Assembly: GCA_020161695.1 (NCBI GenBank)
Contig: JAIUOO010000013.1
Coordinates: forward strand, 1-64,000
Reading direction: 5' to 3'
Origin: Pseudomonadota bacterium
GTDB lineage: Bacteria > Pseudomonadota > Alphaproteobacteria > Rhizobiales > Phreatobacteraceae
DNA length: 64,000 nucleotides
The position numbers were made by a program, and so were the translations under genes. Shown here in pieces: positions 1-64,000 of the stretch. Below the pieces are notes generated by a model. It was not told the DNA's origin. It made no database searches and saw nothing but the letters and a program-made list of their open reading frames with translations. Position 1 is the first letter of the stretch. The number at the start of each line of letters is the position of its first letter.

Positions 1-509
1 CCATCGCGCGCATGATGCGCCCGGGTGATATCGGTCCACATGCCGATCTCCATCGAAGGTCTCGCAACCACCGACGGAATCACAAGCGGCTGATATCACT
101 CAACTTCTTTTTCGGTCAGGCTCTAAGATGGGTGGGCGTTGGTCGTCATCGTCAACGCTGACAAGCGATTCAATGCAATCTTCGACGATGGACGGACGCA
201 ATTCGGTGGATCGTAGCATTTCAGATTCGCTATAAACTCAAACAAGCGCGCAAATTGTAGCTCTAATACATCTATTATATTCTAAGTTCTCATTTTTATT
301 GCGTTCGACACGAGTCAAAAAAGTCAAGATTGGGGGGAAAGCCAGTTTTGGGATAGTTTGACTGGAGTTTCCTTTTCGAGCGCGCTTCAGGTTGTATCGG
401 CCTCATTGGAGGGGCGGAGAGGGGGAGCCGACGCGCACTGACCGCTGCCACCTGCCTTCCCCGTTCGTTCCATAGACATCCCCTTGGCAGAGGCCGCCCA
501 GTTCTGCGT
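1..509. other. No supported gene; AT-richer flank of the phage-like module
   Basis: I see no convincing gene here. Positions about 225-310 are clearly AT-rich compared with the rest of the window. The region lies downstream of the minus-strand terminase gene, where a portal gene would normally follow in a phage packaging module, but no portal-like reading frame is present. A short minus-strand open frame at 296-547 overlaps the terminase end and has Arg/Pro-rich composition typical of a chance frame in GC-rich DNA. Confidence 0.6.
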
Positions 510-1982
510 CTACTGTGTGCCCCTGCGATGCCCTCGCGGCCGAACAACCCTTGCCGGTCGCGCGCGCGCGGGCCTTGCCTGCGCGATCTCTGCGCGCTTG
601 ATATGACCAGTCCGATCCGTCAGGTAATGCAGCGCTTGGCTGGTTGAATCGACTTGATCGTCGTGACGGCTGTTAGGGAAGGCGAGGAGTTCGGACATCC
701 AATCGGCAAGCCAGGGTGCCTCGTTCGGAACATGGACCTGGCCGGCCTCAAAGCGTACCGACTGCGCGAGGAAACGTGCCTCCTTGTCGAAGCGCGGGGC
801 GCGCAGGATGCAACGCAGCTTGTCGGTCTTGCGCAGGTCCTGGGCAATAGCCCGCCCGATATCAGTTTCCTCGATCAAGGTGACATTGGCTGACCAGCGG
901 GCTGAAAGAGCCACTATGCGGCGCCCTAAATCCGGCACCTCGAAGCGGCCGCGTACGAGGTCGAGAAGGTAGAAGTCGAGGCCTTTGGCGCCCCAGACGG
1001 TGCCGACCGAATAATCTGATGTCTCGCCGATGGTCGAGGCTGTGTCCCAACTGGCGATGACGAGATCGAAGGTCTCGGGGCAGGTCTCATAGCGCCGGAG
1101 CCAGTCGCGCTTGACGATATTGCCCTCCGGCGGCACCGGTGCCTGCTGATACTGCGCCGAGAATATCAGCGACCCCATCGAGCGGCGCAGCGGCTCGAGG
1201 ATTTCCAGCGGCTCGCGTTCAGCATGAAGGACCTCGCCGGCGGCGCGATGATAGATGTCGCGCGGATCATTGCTGAGGCGATGCATCGATGGCTCCGGGG
1301 CTATGGCAGGTAGTGAGATTATTTCCCATTCTTCGTTCTGCGTGACATGGGCGACGAGATCTTCCTCGTGCAGGCGCTGCATGACGATGACAATGGCGCC
1401 CTCGCGCTTGTTATTGAGGCGCGATTGCAGCGTGCCGTCGTAATACTCAATGGCGCGCCGGCGCATGGCCTTGGAGAGCGCATCTGCCGGCTTGATCGGA
1501 TCGTCGATCAGGATGATATCCGCGCCACGCCCGGTAATCGAGCCGCCCATGCCGGCGGCGAAGCGGTAGCCGTTGAGGGTGGTGCCGAAGTCGAGATCGC
1601 GTGCTCGGCCGCGGGGGATGTCGAAACCTGGAAAGATGTCCCGATACCATGCCTCGTCGACGATCTTGCGCGTGTCGAGGGCGTGCTTGCGCGCCAGATC
1701 TTCGGCGTAAGAGATGCACATGATGCGCTTACGCGGATCGCGGCCTAGCACCCAGGCCGAGAAGGCCACGGAGACGAGGATGGATTTGAGTGAACGCGGC
1801 GGCACGTTGATGATCAGCCGCTTCAGCTCACCGCGCTCCACCCGGGCGAGCGCCTCGGCGATGTGATCGAGGTGCCAGTTGTGCAGGTAGGGTTGTCCGG
1901 GCTCGAGAGCCCGGAACACTTTCTCGGTGAAGGCTCCAAGATCCTGACGCAACAGGGCCTGGAGGAGACGACGATCGCTCAT
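510..1982 (-). CDS. Phage terminase large subunit (TerL)
   Basis: This is a DNA-packaging ATPase/nuclease of the phage terminase large-subunit family, 490 aa and apparently complete. The N-terminal ATPase shows a Walker-A-like NVPPRSLKS at residues 59-67 and a Walker B IILIDDP at 156-162. The C-terminal RNase-H-fold nuclease shows WDTAS (312-316) and DDQVDS (441-446), which supply the metal-binding acidic residues. The start overlaps the end of the upstream DUF5681 gene by four bases (ATGA), so the two are probably translationally coupled. No portal, protease or capsid gene follows, so this is either a decayed prophage, a satellite fragment or an orphan module. TerL identity is secure; whether it is functional is unknown. 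Confidence 0.9.
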   Translation of the reverse strand: MSDRRLLQALLRQDLGAFTEKVFRALEPGQPYLHNWHLDHIAEALARVERGELKRLIINVPPRSLKSILVSVAFSAWVLGRDPRKRIMCISYAEDLARKHALDTRKIVDEAWYRDIFPGFDIPRGRARDLDFGTTLNGYRFAAGMGGSITGRGADIILIDDPIKPADALSKAMRRRAIEYYDGTLQSRLNNKREGAIVIVMQRLHEEDLVAHVTQNEEWEIISLPAIAPEPSMHRLSNDPRDIYHRAAGEVLHAEREPLEILEPLRRSMGSLIFSAQYQQAPVPPEGNIVKRDWLRRYETCPETFDLVIASWDTASTIGETSDYSVGTVWGAKGLDFYLLDLVRGRFEVPDLGRRIVALSARWSANVTLIEETDIGRAIAQDLRKTDKLRCILRAPRFDKEARFLAQSVRFEAGQVHVPNEAPWLADWMSELLAFPNSRHDDQVDSTSQALHYLTDRTGHIKRAEIAQARPARARPARVVRPRGHRRGTQ

Positions 1983-54193: not shown

Positions 54194-55372
54194 ATGCGAC
54201 TTATCGAAATTCGAGCCGTGACCGAGACGAGCCACGCGCAGCAAGCAATGGTGTCGAGCCGCGTCGAGGGAAGCCGGCTGACGGTCGCGCTTGCCGGCGT
54301 CTGGAACTCCGAGACCGCCGGCGCGATCGAGGCGAAGGTCCGCAGCCTCGTGGCCGAGGGCGGCACGCCGGGCGCCGTTACGCTCGATTTCTCGCAGGTG
54401 ACGCGTCTCGACACGCTCGGCGGCGCGCTGGTGCGGGCGATCGAGGAGGGTTTCTCGTCGCGCGGCGTGCCGGTTGAGCGCACCGGCCTCGCGGGCGCAG
54501 CGCAGACCATCTATGCGGAGGTCGCCGAAGGTCTCGCCGAACCCGCCCCTCCGCGCCCCGCGCCGAAGCCGGGCTATGTCCAGGCGCTCGACAAGGTCGG
54601 CGAGCAGATGCTCGACGCCAAGGGCGACCTGGTCGCGCTGGTCGCCTTCTTCGGCCAGGTGGTGCTTGCGGCCGGCTCGATCTTCACCGGCAAGGGCCGG
54701 TTCCGGCTCGCGGCCGTGGTGACCCAGCTCGACCGTGTCGCCTTCCGCGCCGTGCCGATCATGTTCCTGATCACCTTCGTGATCGGCGCGATCATCGCGC
54801 AGCAGGGCATCTTCTTCTTCCGGGCCTTCGGCGCCGACACCTATGTCGTCGATCTCGTCGCCATCCTGACGCTGCGCGAGATCGGCGTGCTGATCGTCTC
54901 GATCATGGTGGCGGGGCGCACCGGCTCCGCCTTCACGGCCGAACTCGGCTCGATGAAGATGCGCGAGGAGATCGATGCGCTGAGCGTCATGGGCCTCAAT
55001 CCCGTCGAGGTTCTGGTGCTGCCGCGGCTGATCGCGCTGGTGGTTGGCCTGCCGTTGCTGACCATTATCGGCGACCTGTCGGCGCTGGCCGGCGGCGCCG
55101 TCGTCGCGCAGATCTACGGAAACATTCCGATCGATATCTTTCTCCAGCGCATTCAGGAGGAAGTCGCGCACCGGCATGTCTGGGTGGGGCTCGCAAAGGC
55201 GCCGTTCATGGCGCTGATCATCGGCCTCGTCGCCTGCGTCGAGGGCCTGCGCGTGCAGGGCTCGGCCGAGAGCCTCGGCATGCAGACCACAGCCTCCGTC
55301 GTGAAGGCGATCTTCATGGTGATCGTCGTGGACGCGCTTTTCGCCGTATTCTTCGCGAGCCTCGGCTACTGA
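54194..55372 (+). CDS. mlaE: MlaE-family ABC transporter permease with N-terminal STAS domain
   Basis: A protein of about 392 aa. Residues about 20-110 form a STAS-like domain (LTVALAGVWNSETAGAIE, VTLDFSQVTRLDTLGGALV), the role played by separate MlaB in E. coli. The rest is the MlaE permease with QQGIFFFRAFGADTYVVDLVA, REIGVLIVSIMVAGRTGSAFTAELGSMK (in parts) and VEGLRVQGSAESLG. It moves phospholipids between inner and outer membranes. The start is uncertain (ATG 54155, 54194 or 54248; GTG 54218). Stop and the mlaF start overlap by one base. Confidence 0.9.
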   Translation: MRLIEIRAVTETSHAQQAMVSSRVEGSRLTVALAGVWNSETAGAIEAKVRSLVAEGGTPGAVTLDFSQVTRLDTLGGALVRAIEEGFSSRGVPVERTGLAGAAQTIYAEVAEGLAEPAPPRPAPKPGYVQALDKVGEQMLDAKGDLVALVAFFGQVVLAAGSIFTGKGRFRLAAVVTQLDRVAFRAVPIMFLITFVIGAIIAQQGIFFFRAFGADTYVVDLVAILTLREIGVLIVSIMVAGRTGSAFTAELGSMKMREEIDALSVMGLNPVEVLVLPRLIALVVGLPLLTIIGDLSALAGGAVVAQIYGNIPIDIFLQRIQEEVAHRHVWVGLAKAPFMALIIGLVACVEGLRVQGSAESLGMQTTASVVKAIFMVIVVDALFAVFFASLGY

Positions 55373-56139
55373 TGGCGCAGGATGTCATCATCTCCGCGCG
55401 CGACGTCGTCGTCGGCTTCGGCGACCGGCTGATCATCAACGGGCTCGATCTCGACGTCTATCGCGGCGAGGTGCTGGGCGTCGTCGGCGGTTCCGGCACC
55501 GGCAAATCGGTCCTCACCCGCTGCATCATCGGCCTCGTGCCGAAGCGGGCCGGCAAGATTCACGTCTTCGGGCAGGATCTGGACGAGGCAGACGACGATG
55601 GTCACCGCGCAATCGAGCGGCGCTGGGGCGTGCTGTTCCAGCACGGAGCGCTGTTCTCGTCGCTGACGGTCAAGCAGAACATCCAGGTGCCGCTGCGCGA
55701 ATATCTGAAGCTGTCCGAGCCGCTGATGGACGAGATCGCGCGGCTGAAGATCGCCATGGTCGGCCTCAGGCCGGATGCGGCCGACAAATATCCGTCGGAA
55801 TTGTCGGGTGGCATGATCAAGCGCGCGGCTCTGGCGCGGGCGCTGGCGCTCGATCCCGAGATCGTCTTCCTGGACGAGCCGACCTCCGGCCTCGACCCGA
55901 TCGGCGCCGGCGAGTTCGACACGCTGATCAGGACGTTGCGGGACACTTTGGGCCTGACCGTGTATATGGTCACCCACGATCTCGATAGCCTGGCGCGAAT
56001 CTGCGATCGGATCGCAGCCCTCGCCGAGGGCAAGGTGATCGCCACGGGCACGATGGCGGACATGGTCCGGCATCCGCATCCGTGGCTCAGGAGTTATTTC
56101 GGCGGGGAGCGCGCGCGCTCCGCCGGCATCAAGGGTTAG
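55372..56139 (+). CDS. mlaF: MlaF-family ABC transporter ATP-binding protein
   Basis: A 255-aa ATPase of the retrograde phospholipid transport complex. Walker A is VGGSGTGKSVLTR (about residues 38-50), the Q-loop is VLFQHGALFSSLT, the signature is LSGGMIKRAALARA (about 143-156), and Walker B is VFLDEPTSGLDP. The start overlaps the mlaE stop. It forms an operon with the MCE and lipoprotein genes. Confidence 0.94.
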   Translation: MAQDVIISARDVVVGFGDRLIINGLDLDVYRGEVLGVVGGSGTGKSVLTRCIIGLVPKRAGKIHVFGQDLDEADDDGHRAIERRWGVLFQHGALFSSLTVKQNIQVPLREYLKLSEPLMDEIARLKIAMVGLRPDAADKYPSELSGGMIKRAALARALALDPEIVFLDEPTSGLDPIGAGEFDTLIRTLRDTLGLTVYMVTHDLDSLARICDRIAALAEGKVIATGTMADMVRHPHPWLRSYFGGERARSAGIKG

Positions 56140-56158
56140 GACGCGGTCCAAGCGGCTG

Positions 56159-57496
56159 ATGGAAACCAAGGCGAATACCACGCTGATCGGGCTGTTCACG
56201 CTGGCGGTGCTGGCCGTGTTCGGGCTGTTCCTGTGGTGGTTCCTCAGGGTCGGCGACAATACCAACCGCGAGGACTACCGAATCGTCTTCACCGGACCGG
56301 TCGGCGGCCTCAGGACCGGCGCCAACGTATTCTTCAACGGCATCCGCAAGGGCGAGGTCCGCAAGATCGACATCGATCCGGCCGATCCGCGCAAGGTCGT
56401 GGCCATCGTCGCGATCCAGCAGGGCACGCCGATCTCCTCGGCGACGCGCGCCAGCCTCAACGTCCAGCTTCTCTCGGGCATCGCCTCGATCGGCCTAGCC
56501 AACGGGCCGGGCGCCTCGCAGCCGGTCCAGCGGCCGGCCGACGGCACGCCGCCGCAGATCGGGCCCGACGTGCCGGGCGGGCAGGACCTGCTCGCGGGCG
56601 CGCAGGAGACAATGAGCACGCTCAACAACCTGGTCCGCCGGCTCGACGAGACGATTGCGACGGGGCAGGGCTCGTTCCAGCGCAGCCTGCAGAATGTCGA
56701 GAATTTCACGGCGGCGCTGAACGACAACACCGACAATATCCGCAATTTCCTCGACCAGACGGGAGCGGCCGCCCGCCAGATCGCGGCGCTCGCCGAGCGG
56801 CTCGACCGCGTGACGACGCAGGTCGAGAGCATGATGGAGGGATCGCAGCCCGGCCGGATAGCGTCGATCCTGCGCAATGTCGACGAGCTGACCGGCGGCC
56901 TGAACGCGCAGCGCGAGAACTTCGCCGATCTCATCCGCGACGCCCGCCGCGCTTCCGGCGCGCTGACCCAGACGCTCGGCGCGGTCAACGAGGCGGTGAC
57001 CGCCTTCGACGTGCGGGCGCTGAACCGTACGCTCGGCAATGCCGACCGGGTGATTGCCGCGCTCGACAGCGAGCGGATCAGCCGGGCCATGGCCAATATC
57101 GACCGCTTCACCCAGTCGCTGGGCGACAATTCGGCCAATGTCGACCAACTGCTGAAGAATGCCGCCGAGGTGTCGGCCAAGCTCAACGGCATGGCCGACC
57201 GCCTCGACAACCTGCTCAAGGGCTTCCAGGGCGAGGGCGGCAGCGGCATGATGGCGGAGTTCACAGCGACGGCGCGCTCGGTGCGGACGCTCGCCGAGAG
57301 GCTCGACACCCGCACCGCCCAGCTCACGACATCCATCTCCGGCTTCACGGATCGCACGATCCGCGATATCCAGTCGCTCTCCGCCGACGGACGCCGCACC
57401 CTGACGGAGCTCGAACGGACCCTGCGTTCCTTGGAGCGCAATCCGCAGAGATTCATCTTCGGTGGTTCGGGCGTGCCTGAATTCAATCGCCGGTAA
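56159..57496 (+). CDS. mlaD: MlaD-family (MCE) substrate-binding protein
   Basis: A 445-aa MCE protein. An N-terminal membrane anchor (about residues 7-28, TTLIGLFTLAVLAVFGLFLW) is followed by the MCE domain (about 38-115, with FTGPVGGLRTGANVFFNGIRKGEV). The remainder is a long helical coiled coil rich in Asp, Asn and Ala that may span the periplasm. The usual MlaD is about 180 aa, so this is the longer form common in alphaproteobacteria. It presents lipids to MlaEF. Confidence 0.9.
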   Translation: METKANTTLIGLFTLAVLAVFGLFLWWFLRVGDNTNREDYRIVFTGPVGGLRTGANVFFNGIRKGEVRKIDIDPADPRKVVAIVAIQQGTPISSATRASLNVQLLSGIASIGLANGPGASQPVQRPADGTPPQIGPDVPGGQDLLAGAQETMSTLNNLVRRLDETIATGQGSFQRSLQNVENFTAALNDNTDNIRNFLDQTGAAARQIAALAERLDRVTTQVESMMEGSQPGRIASILRNVDELTGGLNAQRENFADLIRDARRASGALTQTLGAVNEAVTAFDVRALNRTLGNADRVIAALDSERISRAMANIDRFTQSLGDNSANVDQLLKNAAEVSAKLNGMADRLDNLLKGFQGEGGSGMMAEFTATARSVRTLAERLDTRTAQLTTSISGFTDRTIRDIQSLSADGRRTLTELERTLRSLERNPQRFIFGGSGVPEFNRR

Positions 57497-57517
57497 GGCT
57501 AGAGGGGCTTGTCCGGC

Positions 57518-58141
57518 ATGCGGGAGGGGAATGCGGGGTTGGGGTTGGACGCGAGGCGGCGCAGCCTGACATTCGGATCCTTGGCAGTCGCGGGCCTTGC
57601 GCTCGCGGGCTGCTCGTCGACCAGTGCGCCGCGCGTCTACGACATTCCGGCGCCCTCGACCTTCCCGGCGCGGGCAGGCGCGGTGCGCGGCCAGCTGCTG
57701 GTCGTCGAGCCCAAGGCCATTGCCAGCCTCGATACCGAGCGGATCGCCGTGCGCGGGCCGGGCGGGGCCTATTCCTACCTGTCCGACGGCGCCTGGGCGG
57801 ACCGGCTGCCGAAACTGCTTCAGGCGCGAATCATCCAGGCTTTCGAGAATGCCAGCCGCCTGCGCTCGGTCGGCCGGCCGGGTGATCGTCTCGCCTCCGA
57901 CTGGCAGTTGCTGGCCGACATCCGCTCCTTCGAGGTCGTCGCCCAGGGGGCGACCGAGGTGGTGGTCGAGATGTCCGTGAAGCTCGTCAACGACCGTTCC
58001 GGCCGCATTCTGGCGGGGAGGGTGTTCGCGGCGCGCGCCCCTGCCGCCGGCACCGATGCCGGCAATGTCTCGGCCGCCTTTGCCGGTGCCGTGCAGACGG
58101 TCATGCGCGATATCGTGCTCTGGACCACCGGCCAGATCTGA
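57518..58141 (+). CDS. ABC-type transport auxiliary lipoprotein (PqiC/YmbA-like)
   Basis: A 207-aa protein with a lipobox LALAGC (about residue 30) after a hydrophobic segment, so it is probably a lipoprotein facing the periplasm, in the outer or inner membrane. The rest matches the PqiC/ABC-transporter auxiliary component family (PF03886): YDIPAPSTFPAR, QLLVVEPKAIASLDTERIAVR and WADRLPKLLQARIIQAFE. It completes an mlaE-F-D-lipoprotein operon. I prefer ATG 57518, with AGAGGGG about ten bases upstream; TTG 57509 is the alternative. Confidence 0.87.
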   Translation: MREGNAGLGLDARRRSLTFGSLAVAGLALAGCSSTSAPRVYDIPAPSTFPARAGAVRGQLLVVEPKAIASLDTERIAVRGPGGAYSYLSDGAWADRLPKLLQARIIQAFENASRLRSVGRPGDRLASDWQLLADIRSFEVVAQGATEVVVEMSVKLVNDRSGRILAGRVFAARAPAAGTDAGNVSAAFAGAVQTVMRDIVLWTTGQI

Positions 58142-58205: not shown

Positions 58206-58616
58206 CTAGCGGGTCGGCGGCAGCCCCTCGAACCGGGGCAGGCCTTCGGGGATGCAGTGGAACGGCTGCATCTCCGCGGTGAAGATCGCCATCTGCGGCA
58301 TGCCATAGGCGGCGGGGTCGTCGAGCGTGCCGGCCTTCAGGATCACCATGGGCAGGCCGGGTCGCCGCGTCGCGACATGCGTGCCGCATTCGGCGCAGAA
58401 CTCGCGCGTCACCGGGTTGTCGAGATCCTTGCGGGTGAAGGTCTTCGGCGTGCCGGCCGTGTAGCTGAAGCCGTCCGGCGGCATCAGCATGAACATGTTC
58501 GGGGCGCCGCCCGAAATATGCTGGCATGCGCGGCAATGACACTGGGCGCGAAGCACCGGCTTGCCCTCGGCCCGGTAACGCAGGCCGCCGCAATAACATC
58601 CGCCTTCGAGCTTCAT
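58206..58616 (-). CDS. GFA (CENP-V/glutathione-dependent formaldehyde-activating) family protein
   Basis: A 136-aa zinc protein of the GFA family. The cysteines are GGCYCGGLRY (CxC), QCHCRACQHISGG (CxCxxC) and EFCAECGTH (CxxC), matching the two structural and catalytic zinc sites. Family members were named for glutathione-dependent formaldehyde activation, but most roles are unknown. It converges with the mla operon and lies downstream of the giant repeat gene. Confidence 0.9.
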   Translation of the reverse strand: MKLEGGCYCGGLRYRAEGKPVLRAQCHCRACQHISGGAPNMFMLMPPDGFSYTAGTPKTFTRKDLDNPVTREFCAECGTHVATRRPGLPMVILKAGTLDDPAAYGMPQMAIFTAEMQPFHCIPEGLPRFEGLPPTR

Positions 58617-58707
58617 GGGCCGCCCCTCACGCCGTCGCGTCCGGCGGAAGCGCCGGCTGCGCGAGAGGATCGCGCAGCCGCGGGGGCATGGCTATCGCCC
58701 GTTCGGC

Positions 58708-61700
58708 TCAGTCGAACCGGCCGCTCGAATGGGCGAGCAGGGTGAAGACCTTGCCCGTCTCCGACGTCAGGTAGGACCGGGCGAGCGAGCCGTCGCGGTC
58801 GTTCCGGTCGACATCGGCGAGCAGCCGCTGGAACTCGTCGATGTAGCGGTCGACGGTGTCGCGGAAGTCGCTGTCGCGGCGATAGCGGCGGCGCAGGTCG
58901 TCGAAGGTCTGCTGCCCCTGCGCCGTGTAGAGGCGACGCGAGAAGACATTGCGCTCGCCACGGCGCCAGCGGTCCCACAGCTCGACGACAGCGTCGTGAT
59001 CGACCATCCGGGCGATGTCCGAGGACAGCGCATCGAGATTGTCGAGGGCGGCAGGCGGCGGGTTCCGCCGCGGCGCCGTGCGCATCGGCTGGTTGTCGCC
59101 ATCCTCCGAGGCGCGGGCGAGGAGGTCCGAGAGCCAGCCGCCGTTGCGGTCGGCGGCCTTCGGCGCCTCGGCGCGAGCCGTCTCGCGGCGCGGCTCGGCC
59201 TCGCGGCGCGGCTCGGGTGTGCGCTGGCGGGGCGTCTCGCGCACCGGCTCGACACGGGGCGGCTCGGCGCGCGCGGGCTCGGCACGGGGCACGTCGGCGA
59301 CCGCGCCGCGCAGCGGCACCGTCGGCTCGTCGCGCATCGCGCGGCGGGGCGTGGCAGGGGAGGCGTCCGTGACGTCGTAGGCGCGGCCGGACTTGGCGAC
59401 GATGTCGTTCAGCTCGGCCAGCGCCTTGATCTGGTCGGCGACGACGCGGCGCATGGCGGCGGCGTTCTCCTGCGTCTCCTTCGGGATCTCCACCATGCCG
59501 CGCGTCAGTTCGGTGCGCGTGTCGGCGAGCTCCCGCTGGATTTCCGAGGTCATCGCCTTCATGCCGGAGGTGAGCGTCTCGAACCGCTCCGCAGCCTCGC
59601 GGAACAGCGCGTTCATCTCGCCGGTCGCCTGCTCGTAGGCCGAGCGCATGGCGTGGGTCGTGCGCTCGCGCTCCTTGCCGGTGGCAAGGCGCAGGGTCTC
59701 GGCCTGTTCGGAGATCGCCTGCGTCGTCTGGTTGGTCGATTCGACCAGCACGCGGCCGATCTCGCGGGCGCGGCTCTCGGCCGAGCCGAGATTGTCGTCG
59801 AGCAGGGCCGTGAACGAGCGGACGAGATTGTCCATGTCCTCGGTCTTGGAGGCGAGATGGCCGACCAGCGCCTCGATGATCTCGCGGCGCGAGTCGAGCG
59901 AGGCGTCGAGGCGGCCCTGCATGTCCTCGACCTGTTCGGCGGCGGCGCTGAGGAGCCGGGCCTGGTTGTCGAAGCGCTCCGCCAGCGAGCCGATGTCGCG
60001 CAGCACGGCGGTGGCGACGCTCGAAAGCTGGCCGACCTGGCTGTTGAGCATCCGCGTCGAGGTCTCGGCGGCCGAGGAGGCGGTCTCGACCGAGGTCGCG
60101 AACTGGCCGATGCGCTCGCCGAGCTGGTCGTTGATGGCGGCGAGGTTGGTCTCGGTCTGGCCGGCGAGCTCGCGCAGCGAGCCGTTGGTCTCGCCGAGGC
60201 GGGAGATGACGGCGTTGATCTCGCCGCGCAGCTGCTCGTTGGTCGAGGTGAGGGCGAGCACGGATTCGCGCGCGCCGGTCTCGACATTGGCGCGGAAGCT
60301 CTCCGAGCTCTCCGCCAGCAGGCGCGTGGCCTGCTCGGAGGAGTCGGCGATGCCGCGCGTCACGTCGACGCCGGTCTGAGACAGGGTGCGGGTGATCTCC
60401 GCGCCCTTCTGGCCGATGATCTCGGAGATGGCGTTGCCGCGGTTCTCCAGCGTCCGGGCCACGAGGTCGCCAACGCGGCTGACCTCGCCGGTGACCTGCA
60501 GGCCGTTCTCGGCGAGCCGCTCCACGAGGTTGCTGCCGCGATCGTCGAGCAGCGAGGCGAGCTCGGCCGAGCGGGCGCCCAGCACCGCGTTGATCTCGTT
60601 GACGCGGGTCGAGAGGCCCTGCGTGATGTCGGTCGAGATGGTCGACAGCGTGCGCTCGACCTCGTCGGCATTGGCGCGGAGCGTCGCGGTGACGGCCTCG
60701 ACCTTGTCGGTGAGCGTCTCGGCGATATGCGAGCCGCGCGCATCCAGCGACTGCGAGACGGTCTCGAGACGGCCGACCACGACCTCCTCGAAGCGCGCGA
60801 CGCGGGTGTCCAGCGTCTCGGCCACCTCGATCGCCCGGCCGCCCAGCGTCCGGTTGATCTCGTCCGCCTTCTCCGACAGCGTCGTGGTGATGACGTCCGC
60901 CTTGGAGGTGAGGGTGTAGGTCACCTCGTCCGACTTGTCGGAGAGGAGGCGGGTGATCTCCTCCGACTTGGCGGTCAGCGAATAGGCGACCTCGTCGGAC
61001 TTGTCGCTGAGCAGGCGGGTGATCTCGCCGGATTTTACCGCCAGCGTGTAGGTCACGTCCGCCGACTTGTCGGACAGGACACGGGTGATGTCCTCCGAGC
61101 GGGCGGCGAGATTCTGCGCGATGTCCGCCGAAGTGGTCGCGAGGTTCTGTGCGATCTGGTCCGACTTGGTCGCGAGGTCGCGGGCCATTTCCTCGGACCG
61201 GGACGTCAGATTGTAGACGATCTGGTCCGATTTATCGTTGAGCAGGCGTGCCAGCTCGTCCGACTTGGTGGTCAGGTTCGAGGCGATCTCGTCCGAGCGG
61301 GTGGCGAGGGTCTCGGTGATCTCGCCCGAACGGGTCGCCAGCGTGTTGGCGATCTCGTCCGACTTCGAGGCCAGGGTCGAGGTGATCTCGTCCGACTTGG
61401 CGGTGAGGTTGAAGGTGATTTCCGCCGACTTGTTCTCCAGCGCCTCGGTCACGGCCTTGCCGCCTTCGCCCAGCACCTGGGCGAGTTCCAGGGTGCGACT
61501 GGCGAGCGTGGCGTTGAACGCCTGCGCGCGGGTGTCCAGCGCCTGGTCGATGCGGGCGAGGCGGCCGTCGAGGGCCTCGGTGATTTCGGTCGACTGCTGG
61601 GCGACGCGATCGGCGAACTCACGGGCATCACCGGCGATCCGGTCGGCGAGGGCGGTGCCCTTGCCCGAGATCGTCTGGTCGAGGGCCGCGATATGGCCGG

Positions 61701-64000
61701 TCAGCTTGTGGTCGAGCAGGGCGGTGTGGTTGGCGACGGACTCGGTCATGGTCGTCGCGTGGCCGCCGACGCGGGCCTCGAAATCGGCCGACAGGCGGCC
61801 GACCGCATCCTCCAGATTGAGGGCGTGGCGGGAGACGGCGTCTTCCATGCCGGTCGCGTAATGGGCGACACGGCCCTCGAACGTGGAGGTGTGGCGGCCG
61901 AAAGCCTCGTCGAAATTGGCGGCGTAGCGCGCGAGATTCTCCTCGATCGAGGAGGCGTGCTGGCCAATGCGGCCGTCGAGCGTGCCGGTGTGGCGGCTGA
62001 GCGTGTCCTCGAACAGGTTCGCGTGGCGCGACAGCGTCTCGTCGATGGCCGAGGCGTGCTGGCCGATGCGTCCCTCGAGGTTGCCGGCGTTGCGGCTGAA
62101 CGTGTCCTCGAAGGCCGTCGCATGGCGCGACAGGCTTTCCTCGATGGCGGAGGCATGCTGGCCGACGCGGCCGTCGATGTCGCCGGCATGGCGGCCGAAG
62201 ACATCCTCGAAGGTTGCGGCGTGGCGCGACAGGCTCTCCTCGATGACGGAGGCATGCTGGCCGATCCGGCCGTCGAGGCTGCCGGTATGGCGGCTCAGCG
62301 TCTCGTCGATCCGCGCGGTGTGGTTGCCGAGGCGGGTGACGAAATCGGCCGTGTGGCGCGTGAACACGTCCTCGATATGGGCCGTGTGGTGGGCGGCGCT
62401 GGTGTCGAAGCCCGACGCATAGCGGCTGAATGCATCCTCCAGCGCGCCGGTGTGCTGGGCGACGCGCGCCTCGAAGCCGGAGGTGTGGCGGTTGATGGCG
62501 TCGTCCAGCTGGATGACGTTCTGCGCGATGCGGGTGACGATGGCCTCGCCGTGGTCGGCGACGGCGCCGGAGATCTGTGCAGCCGTCTCTTCCATGCGCT
62601 GGGTAACGAACTCGCCGCGCGCGGAGAGGGCATTGGTGACCTCGGCGCCGATATGGCCGATGCGCTGGGTGAGGTCGGTGCCCTGCGAGGCGAAGCTCGC
62701 CAGCACGTCCGTTCCGGCCAGTTCGATCTCCTGGCGCAGGTTCGCGGTGCGCTCGGAAATAGCTGTCGTGACCGTTTCGGAGGCGCGGTGCAGGGCGAGC
62801 TGCACGTCCTGCGCCTTCTCGGTGAGGCTCTCGACCACCTGGATGCCGACATCGCCGATGGCGCCCTTGGCCTCGGCGGTGCGCTGGGTGATCGCCTCGG
62901 CGATGAGCTGGCCGGTGACGGCGAGGCGCTTGTCGAGCTCGTCGCCGTGGGTGGTGACGGTCTGGTGCAGCTTGTCGCCGGTCTCGGCGATGCGGTCGGC
63001 AAGGGCGCCGCCGCGCACCGTGATGGTCTCGGCGACGTAGCTGCCGGTCGTATCCAGCTTGGATGCGACCTCCGAGCCGCGCTCGGTCAGTTCGCCGACG
63101 AGACGCTCGCCGGTGTCGCGCAGGCGCGAGGTGACCTCGTTGCCGCGCAGCGACAGTTCGGAGACGAAGGCCTCGCCCGTCTCGCGCAGGGTCGAGGTGA
63201 CCTCGCCGCCGCGGGTGGACAGCTCATAGACCAGCGTCTCGGCGGTCGACTTCAGCTGCGAGTTGACCTCGCCGCCGCGGGTGGAGAGTTCATAGACGAG
63301 GCTCTCGCCGGTGTCCTTCAGGCGCGAGGTGACCTCGTTCCCGCGCGTCGACAGCTCGGTGACGAAAGCTTCGCCCGTCTCGCGCAGGGTCGAGGTGACT
63401 TCGCCGCCGCGCGACGACAGTTCGGAAATCAGGCTCTCGCCGGTCTCGCGGAGCGTGGACGACACGTAATGGCCGCGCGTCGAAAGCTCGGTGATGAGGT
63501 TCTCGCCGGTCTCCTTGAGTGTCGAGGAGACGTAGTCGCCGCGCGTGGAGAGTTCCGCGATCAGCGCCTCGCCGGTGTCCTTCAGCGTCGCCGAGACATA
63601 ACCGCCGCGCTCGGAGAGCTCGCCGATCAGCGCCTCGCCGGTGATCTTGAGGGTCGAGGAGACCTCGCCGCCACGGCTGGCGAGTTCGCCGATCAGGGCC
63701 TCGCCGGTCTCGCGCAGGGTGGAGGAGACCTCGCCCGAGCGCATCGACAGTTCGGCGACGAGGTTCTCGCCGGTTTCCTTCAGGCGCGAGGAGACGTCGT
63801 CCGCGCGGCTGGCGATGGCATGGGTGATCTCGGCGCTGGTCGCGGCGAGATGGTTGGTCATGGCCGTGCCGGTCTCGGAGAGCTTGGCCGCCATGGTCGT
63901 GCCGGTATCGGCCATCGTGACGGTCACGATGTTGCCGGTGTCGGTCAGCACCGAGGTCACGCGGTCGCCGGTGGTCGACAGGGCGCGGGTCACCTCGTCG
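58708..64000 (-). CDS. Giant apolipoprotein-like repeat protein, probable Growth Pole Ring (GPR/RgsE) homologue, 5' end outside window
   Basis: At least 1,763 codons are open to the window edge, so the start is not visible. Nearly all of the protein is amphipathic helix with 11-residue periodicity: eleven 22-mers (63058-63783), five 33-mers (61777-62271) and nineteen consecutive 11-mers (60814-61440). An Arg/Pro/Glu-rich linker (about 59120-59345) is followed by a conserved C-terminal domain (ISSD... AVVELWDRWRRGERNVFSRRLYT in parts, and LTSETGKVFTLLAHSSGRFD in parts). This architecture resembles the Agrobacterium GPR/Sinorhizobium RgsE protein that rings the growth pole and supports polar growth. 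The visible part has no transmembrane segment; one could lie in the missing N-terminus. The GPR assignment rests on repeat type, size and the C-terminal domain, and is not certain. Confidence 0.75.
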   Translation of the reverse strand, partial: DEVTRALSTTGDRVTSVLTDTGNIVTVTMADTGTTMAAKLSETGTAMTNHLAATSAEITHAIASRADDVSSRLKETGENLVAELSMRSGEVSSTLRETGEALIGELASRGGEVSSTLKITGEALIGELSERGGYVSATLKDTGEALIAELSTRGDYVSSTLKETGENLITELSTRGHYVSSTLRETGESLISELSSRGGEVTSTLRETGEAFVTELSTRGNEVTSRLKDTGESLVYELSTRGGEVNSQLKSTAETLVYELSTRGGEVTSTLRETGEAFVSELSLRGNEVTSRLRDTGERLVGELTERGSEVASKLDTTGSYVAETITVRGGALADRIAETGDKLHQTVTTHGDELDKRLAVTGQLIAEAITQRTAEAKGAIGDVGIQVVESLTEKAQDVQLALHRASETVTTAISERTANLRQEIELAGTDVLASFASQGTDLTQRIGHIGAEVTNALSARGEFVTQRMEETAAQISGAVADHGEAIVTRIAQNVIQLDDAINRHTSGFEARVAQHTGALEDAFSRYASGFDTSAAHHTAHIEDVFTRHTADFVTRLGNHTARIDETLSRHTGSLDGRIGQHASVIEESLSRHAATFEDVFGRHAGDIDGRVGQHASAIEESLSRHATAFEDTFSRNAGNLEGRIGQHASAIDETLSRHANLFEDTLSRHTGTLDGRIGQHASSIEENLARYAANFDEAFGRHTSTFEGRVAHYATGMEDAVSRHALNLEDAVGRLSADFEARVGGHATTMTESVANHTALLDHKLTGHIAALDQTISGKGTALADRIAGDAREFADRVAQQSTEITEALDGRLARIDQALDTRAQAFNATLASRTLELAQVLGEGGKAVTEALENKSAEITFNLTAKSDEITSTLASKSDEIANTLATRSGEITETLATRSDEIASNLTTKSDELARLLNDKSDQIVYNLTSRSEEMARDLATKSDQIAQNLATTSADIAQNLAARSEDITRVLSDKSADVTYTLAVKSGEITRLLSDKSDEVAYSLTAKSEEITRLLSDKSDEVTYTLTSKADVITTTLSEKADEINRTLGGRAIEVAETLDTRVARFEEVVVGRLETVSQSLDARGSHIAETLTDKVEAVTATLRANADEVERTLSTISTDITQGLSTRVNEINAVLGARSAELASLLDDRGSNLVERLAENGLQVTGEVSRVGDLVARTLENRGNAISEIIGQKGAEITRTLSQTGVDVTRGIADSSEQATRLLAESSESFRANVETGARESVLALTSTNEQLRGEINAVISRLGETNGSLRELAGQTETNLAAINDQLGERIGQFATSVETASSAAETSTRMLNSQVGQLSSVATAVLRDIGSLAERFDNQARLLSAAAEQVEDMQGRLDASLDSRREIIEALVGHLASKTEDMDNLVRSFTALLDDNLGSAESRAREIGRVLVESTNQTTQAISEQAETLRLATGKERERTTHAMRSAYEQATGEMNALFREAAERFETLTSGMKAMTSEIQRELADTRTELTRGMVEIPKETQENAAAMRRVVADQIKALAELNDIVAKSGRAYDVTDASPATPRRAMRDEPTVPLRGAVADVPRAEPARAEPPRVEPVRETPRQRTPEPRREAEPRRETARAEAPKAADRNGGWLSDLLARASEDGDNQPMRTAPRRNPPPAALDNLDALSSDIARMVDHDAVVELWDRWRRGERNVFSRRLYTAQGQQTFDDLRRRYRRDSDFRDTVDRYIDEFQRLLADVDRNDRDGSLARSYLTSETGKVFTLLAHSSGRFD
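60814..61440 (-). repeat. Nineteen tandem 11-residue coding repeats
   Basis: The coding sequence contains 19 consecutive hendecads without an insertion, each starting with Leu, of the form L-x-x-K/R-S-D/E-x-I/V-x-x-x (for example LTAKSDEITST, LASKSDEIANT, LATRSGEITET). At the DNA level this is a 33-bp tandem array. Hendecads favour a right-handed coiled coil or an apolipoprotein-like amphipathic helix. Confidence 0.95.
61777..62271 (-). repeat. Five tandem 33-residue coding repeats
   Basis: Units begin at 62271, 62172, 62073, 61974 and 61875, exactly 99 bp apart, and open with GRIGQHASxIEESLSRHA or a variant (the last is GRVAHYATGMEDAVSRHA). Each unit equals three 11-residue periods. Looser units continue on both sides. 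The His-rich character distinguishes this block from the other two arrays. Confidence 0.92.
63058..63783 (-). repeat. Eleven tandem 22-residue coding repeats
   Basis: Eleven units of exactly 66 bp, each starting L-K/R-E/D-T-G-E and ending S/T-x-R-G-G-E/N-V-x-S (for example LRETGEALIGELASRGGEVS). A unit equals two hendecads, the apolipoprotein A/E type of repeat. Adjacent units are similar at the nucleotide level, so copy number may vary between strains. Confidence 0.93.

Follow-up and report, generated by a model that had tools for sequence, protein, structure and literature searches.

A growth pole ring family protein from Phreatobacteraceae carries a 1,355-residue uninterrupted hendecad register

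Results

A gpr/rgsE homologue at the right edge of the window

The window analysed here is a 64,000-nucleotide stretch of a Phreatobacteraceae genome, and its right edge is crossed by a minus-strand gene (full gene G000:C20:58708-64968, ATG start) whose 2,086 aa product is described in Table 1. A Pfam scan matched the protein to PF01442 (apolipoprotein A1/A4/E) over ten stretches, at 284 bits against a cut-off of 90, and two transmembrane (TM)-like hydropathy stretches are predicted at residues 91-110 and 120-150. The closest named relatives belong to Phreatobacter. Profile matches to ZorA, SpiroCoCo and ZapG were below their cut-offs and were put down to coiled-coil noise, while a kinship to Caulobacter TipN was dropped, no NCBIfam or Pfam model supporting it in the six homologues scanned. 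No Pfam match to a DivIVA-like N-terminal domain was obtained at E<=0.01 for the 1,763 residues encoded in the window, a scan that begins after the N-terminal 323 residues, which are largely linker and TM.

The architecture is that of GPR from Agrobacterium tumefaciens (Atu1348; PMC8262873) and RgsE from Sinorhizobium meliloti (SMc00190; PMC7327166). GPR is 2,115 aa long and likewise has two N-terminal TM helices and a long continuous helix covered by PF01442 (1,700 residues, with PF01442 spanning 75% of the protein); the C-terminal low-complexity regions of GPR, whose C-terminus is essential, are also matched here (PMC8262873). RgsE is described as a protein of 2,089 aa with two TM helices, as here, and with up to ten apolipoprotein A1/A4/E domains; homologues are reported from all Rhizobiales families, and TolQ, RgsA and RgsS are named as partners (PMC7327166). 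Using a profile of the C-terminal domain, we found the family in 118 of 122 sampled Rhizobiales genera, nearly always as a single match per genome. Since it is single-copy across the order, we take the protein to be a probable orthologue of Atu1348 and SMc00190. Judged by its sequence, it represents Phreatobacter in the growth pole ring family, which includes GPR and RgsE and organises growth at a single cell pole in other bacteria.

Next to the gpr homologue, with a GFA-domain gene between, is a set of genes for lipid transport of the Mla type (an ABC ATPase, MlaD and an auxiliary lipoprotein; 55372-58141, plus strand), and YcjX-like/DUF697 genes are located on its opposite side (L002:10620-13072). 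A 2,157-aa open reading frame runs antisense along the whole length of gpr (58615-64000 in the window, plus strand; L002:1116-7589, plus strand). It is closed in several relatives, for example L007 and L009, and was rejected as a real gene; because it is not open in these relatives, it is probably a by-product of GC-rich codon use and of the repeats.

Table 1 Features of the gpr/rgsE homologue. Coordinates are window positions; the codon of residue r has its low end at 58711+3*(2086-r).
Feature	Residues	Coordinates	Strand	Remarks
gpr/rgsE homologue, 2,086 aa		58708..64000	minus	Open reading frame and Pfam PF01442, E=5e-85; continues past the right window edge
Hendecad rod, part in the window	240-1594	60187..64000	minus	N-terminal end of the rod at C20:64251
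22-residue super-repeats	370-640	63049..63861	minus	Lag-22 identity 0.64; 66-bp tandem DNA repeat
33-residue super-repeats	860-1100	61669..62391	minus	Lag-33 identity 0.46; 99-bp tandem DNA repeat
19 hendecads, L-x-x-K/R-S/A-D/E-E-I type	1177-1385	60814..61440	minus	
18 true KSDEI units	1177-1374	60847..61440	minus	
Motif EINRTLGGRAIEV	1369-1381	60826..60864	minus	Relatively well conserved in the alignment
Post-hendecad helical region, mixed periodicity	1595-1860	59389..60186	minus	Ends in conserved AAMRRVVADQIKAL
Pro/Arg/Glu low-complexity linker	about 1870-1965	59074..59361	minus	Predicted disordered
Conserved C-terminal helical domain	1972-2086	58711..59055	minus	Most conserved part of the family

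A single hendecad register over 1,355 residues

A hendecad hidden Markov model (HMM) trained on the family assigns one unslipped register to residues 240-1594, corresponding to 1,355 residues or about 123 units. The longest run in shuffled proteins was 13 residues, the longest in the family is 1,649, and among the other open reading frames of the 64-kb window none had a run of more than 37 residues, that longest one being in the antisense of the gpr homologue. The hydrophobic phase at period 11/3 stays constant over most of the protein. Within the rod, 99% of units have an ILVMF residue at position 1 and 98% have one at position 8; position 5 is Gly, Ala or Ser in 82% (Gly in 48 of the 123 units). 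The rod contains no proline, and 18 prolines occur in 112,134 hendecad residues family-wide. The original prediction had proposed a straight or right-handed helical rod of about 30 nm. Near-straightness is indeed expected, because of the 11/3 periodicity (PMC9858780), but the length would be some 6.5 times greater, about 203 nm at 0.15 nm per residue if the rod is fully helical. It had also regarded such regularity as rare in bacteria, which holds for proteins generally, but 284 of the 297 Rhizobiales genomes sampled encode a member of this family.

Superimposed on the hendecads are longer repeats. The 22-residue block alternates units such as LRETGEALIGE and LSTRGGEVTST, and the 33-residue block is exemplified by IGQHASAIEES LSRHATAFEDT FSRNAGNLEGR. 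At the DNA level, these two blocks and the KSDEI block form tandem repeats of 66, 99 and 33 bp, respectively, with matches of 60-77%.

The KSDEI block and its boundary

The segment that drew attention to this gene had been described as 19 uninterrupted hendecads, with no strand given. Its coordinates are exact; it lies on the minus strand and comprises 209 residues, i.e. 19 x 11, with no indel. The proposed pattern was recovered as well, with Leu at position 1 in 19/19 units, Lys or Arg at position 4 in 18/19, Ser or Ala at position 5 in 19/19 and Ile, Val, Leu or Met at position 8 in 19/19. Self-identity of the segment is 0.45 at lag 11 and 0.51 at lag 22, compared with a maximum of 0.18 over 2,000 shuffles. 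However, only 18 of the units are of the KSDEI type proper. The segment boundaries are arbitrary, as the register continues on both sides. The 19th unit (LGGRAIEVAET) belongs to a conserved motif; LGGRAIE (60826-60846, minus strand) falls within the relatively conserved EINxTLGxRA motif at the end of the block. In seven Phreatobacter species the block has 10, 15, 15, 18, 18, 19 and 21 units and never a fractional number; a comparison of repeat number among strains had been proposed as a check, and among species the number does vary.

The anticipated helix is also returned by AlphaFold2 (AF2; 23 sequences), which predicts a single helix over residues 1123-1374 with pLDDT of 83-93 over ~1172-1311, falling to 66 near 1351, followed by a low-confidence break at 1375-1381 within the EINxTLGxRA motif and the 19th unit. 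As the predicted break and the lowest confidence coincide there, the EINRTLGGRAIEV motif is a possible hinge. The rod model has a pTM of 0.26, constituting weak evidence on a repetitive single-chain helix, and hendecads have been named difficult AlphaFold targets in published work. For the C-terminal part, the helix predicted by AF2 is long and runs to about residue 1863; a disordered linker follows, and after it a small helical domain. A Foldseek search against solved structures gave a best E of 0.21 for the C-terminal model, with nothing meaningful, and no match for the rod model.

Rod length changes mostly by multiples of 11

Indels were analysed in full family genes, taken from 80 named loci and from another 40 genomic stretches. 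The rods of 25 disjoint nearest pairs contain 30 gaps, of which 27 are multiples of 11 (the others being 4, 4 and 18), as opposed to 3 of 78 linker gaps (Fisher P = 7e-19), a result that was stable under three gap-cost settings. When deletions of 1, 2, 3 or 5 residues were simulated, the aligner recovered them exactly. With eight very distant pairs added, alignments lose reliability and the share falls to 71/109 under the default gap cost and to 63/142 under the softest. When all close pairs are considered, multiples of 11 account for 718 of 789 distinct rod gaps (these counts are non-independent), with exceptions mostly 4 or 7 mod 11, and linker gaps are chiefly of 1-3 residues.

Distances between conserved anchors provide an alignment-free view. 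The N2-M1 distance varies by hundreds of residues, and differs by multiples of 11 in 46 of 60 proteins (23 of the 33 distinct distances); for M1-C1 this applies to 61 of 63 proteins. Over the longest span, N1-C1, 53 of 92 are at multiples of 11, with the remainder mainly 10 or 7 mod 11. Where the rods of other species do slip, the shift is mostly 7, 3 or 10 mod 11 (7, 14 or 21 residues), matching the expectation for one, two or three inserted heptads. Relatives thus alter rod length almost exclusively in steps that keep the register.

Homologues outside the order have other periods

Outside Rhizobiales, the C-terminal profile matched 35 of 84 sampled genomes. Twenty such genes (L171-L190) encode proteins with one or two TM-like stretches that are nearly all shorter, at 715-1,581 residues, with one of 2,000. 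Most of their rods have a period near 25/7 = 3.571, the hydrophobic pattern peaking at lags 25, 50 and 75; two have a period of 3.62 and four of 3.58-3.60. Rod periodicity power is 20-102, compared with a shuffle maximum of 9.4. Within Rhizobiales, 98 of 104 proteins are at 3.66-3.67, while the small L148 and L149 are at 3.57 and L141 at 3.62. The out-of-order rods may each reflect a lineage-specific ratio of heptads to hendecads. In six out-of-order homologues the PF01442 score is below the cut-off or there is none. Because these other-period homologues fail the cut-off, the apolipoprotein label may be a by-product of 11-mer periodicity, a point of relevance to the lipid hypothesis published for GPR.

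Discussion

While the protein family was already known, its unbroken register and its change of length in multiples of 11 appear undescribed in the literature searched. The 2021 GPR paper describes two 21-residue coiled coils besides the apolipoprotein domains, and the word hendecad is absent from it (PMC8262873); the passages of the RgsE paper considered here give no description of the repeat architecture (PMC7327166). In the same literature, no paper combined 'hendecad' with 'apolipoprotein' or 'hendecad' with 'Rhizobiales', and the 2023 hendecad survey by Martinez-Goikoetxea and Lupas may already include the family.

Family, architecture, periodicity and indel rule are direct observations of the present analysis, and their best explanation is probably a nearly straight, paired hendecad coiled-coil rod belonging to a growth-pole scaffold of the GPR/RgsE type; the pairing into a coiled coil, the geometry of the rod and the role of the protein in this species we infer. 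The two N-terminal TM helices (residues 91-150) would anchor the protein in the membrane, from where the single-register α-helical rod of ~123 hendecads would reach into the cytoplasm, leading to the disordered linker and the conserved helical domain. In a coiled-coil core with 3-4-4 spacing, position 5 (Gly/Ala/Ser) would correspond to a, position 8 (Val/Ile/Leu) to d and position 1 (Leu) to h. Two or more copies would pair to form a stiff, nearly straight rod. At the growth pole this rod would hold the C-terminal domains at a distance from the membrane anchor, spacing or displaying them, and would in this way organise envelope synthesis there. Repeat number would shift by whole-unit tandem duplication or loss, with register-breaking changes purged by selection.

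The rod sequence follows the 11-residue register and the 3-4-4 spaced a/d/h core by which hendecad coiled coils are recognised. Hendecads have very little supercoil and need either higher oligomers or, in dimers, a small core residue (PMC9858780); a small position 5 combined with bulky positions 8 and 1 fits closely packed, low-order hendecad bundles. Two counterpoints apply: the frequent Gly at position 5 reduces helix stability, and the matches to apolipoprotein A-IV leave room for lipid binding. A comparable case is the polar-growth protein Scy of Streptomyces (as well as FilP), Scy forming a rod of >1,000 residues that is made up almost wholly of hendecads and is rich in small core residues (PMC9858780). 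The gpr homologue differs in its predicted TM anchor, in the missing Pfam match to a DivIVA-like N-terminal domain over the residues scanned and in belonging to a different phylum, and the likeness would be convergent.

In the principal alternative, the rod would lie on the inner membrane as a giant amphipathic (3-11) helix, in the manner of apolipoproteins, alpha-synuclein or perilipin 4, and would there sort or curve growth-pole lipids. This is near the published GPR hypothesis, and it draws on the PF01442 match, on PDB matches to apolipoprotein A-IV (E 7e-8 and 4e-7), on the predicted membrane anchor and on the 22- and 33-residue super-repeats, which resemble those of apolipoproteins and perilipin 4. 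Perilipin 4 in particular has very long indel-free 11-mer/33-mer repeats similar to those of the gpr rod, including 29 33-mers without indels (PMC5889406). The similarity does not extend to composition, as perilipin 4 carries a net +1 per 33 residues and is weakly hydrophobic, whereas the gpr rod has a net charge of -80 over its 1,355 residues (about -2 per 33) and Leu, Ile or Val at two positions of nearly every unit; in perilipin 4, reversing the charge from +1 to -1 per 33 residues abolished lipid-droplet targeting (PMC5889406). A lipid-binding discriminant of the Heliquest form exceeds 0.68 in 2% of 18-residue windows and averages -0.03, so that the combination of lipid-suited charge and hydrophobic moment typical of apolipoprotein/perilipin-type helices is not seen in the rod. 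The out-of-order homologues also speak against it, with the same ends but equally regular rods of other periods, and with PF01442 scores that are under the cut-off or absent in the six scanned. The sequence suggests that the rod is probably not a lipid-lying apolipoprotein helix, and we consider this alternative unlikely. With such a helix less likely and the hendecad core rules followed, a paired, nearly straight rod is therefore the reading we retain.

A rather improbable variant has the rod folding back into antiparallel helical bundles (hairpins resembling those of apolipoprotein A-IV) to give a compact particle. Zupan et al. inferred that folding is necessary from the 50 nm width of foci, since the 1,700-residue helix of GPR was put at 600 nm (PMC8262873). 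This figure is the length of an extended chain; with 0.15 nm for each residue, the helix measures 255 nm, a value that corrects the published extended length, and GFP on the membrane-anchored end gives no readout of rod length. The AF2 break at the conserved LGGRA motif is compatible with folding, and bending is conceivable in the Gly-rich 22-mers, but 1,355 residues of strict register without loops or prolines offer no obvious turns. It could further be argued that multiples of 11 arise from the mutation process alone, through slippage or unequal crossing-over in 33-bp repeats, with no selection on register. Tandem DNA repeats of 33, 66 and 99 bp do exist, and most rod gaps are of 22, 33 or 44 residues. 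However, in-frame indels of 1-3 residues, which dominate the linkers of the same genes, are absent from close-pair rods; the exceptions within rods are mainly 4, 7 and 18, all of which preserve helical phase; and the out-of-order rods hold one exact period over hundreds of residues with a different unit. Mutation alone is thus a very improbable cause.

Agrobacterium and Sinorhizobium, the Rhizobiales in which this has been studied, need GPR and RgsE, respectively, for normal unipolar growth, and the published picture leans on apolipoprotein similarity. It is from these homologues that the polar ring and the role in polar growth are taken: according to PMC8262873 and PMC7327166, loss disturbs growth and rod shape, and overproduction leads to branching or extra poles. 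The register rule favours a continuous helical rod under strong selection over the apolipoprotein picture. If the register model is true, the rod should accept added stretches of 11 or 7 residues but not of 1-3 residues.

A broader and tentative reading, which as a whole we hold to be doubtful, would see the alphaproteobacterial GPR family as a length- and pitch-tuned rod, in which a helix links the same membrane anchor to the same C-terminal domain, with an exact period fixed in each lineage and a length that changes by whole repeats. The period would be 25/7 in the majority of the homologues sampled beyond Rhizobiales and in a single family of small proteins within the order; a few would have about 29/8 or 18/5, and nearly all Rhizobiales 11/3. 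In Rhizobiales, the switch to an 11-mer and growth to 1,400-2,900 residues would have accompanied use as a ruler or strut for growth-pole geometry. Rods of other periods outside the order provide a natural series in which helix pitch could be related to cell-pole function. The rod described here, at about 203 nm, would come near the 200-nm ring reported for Agrobacterium.
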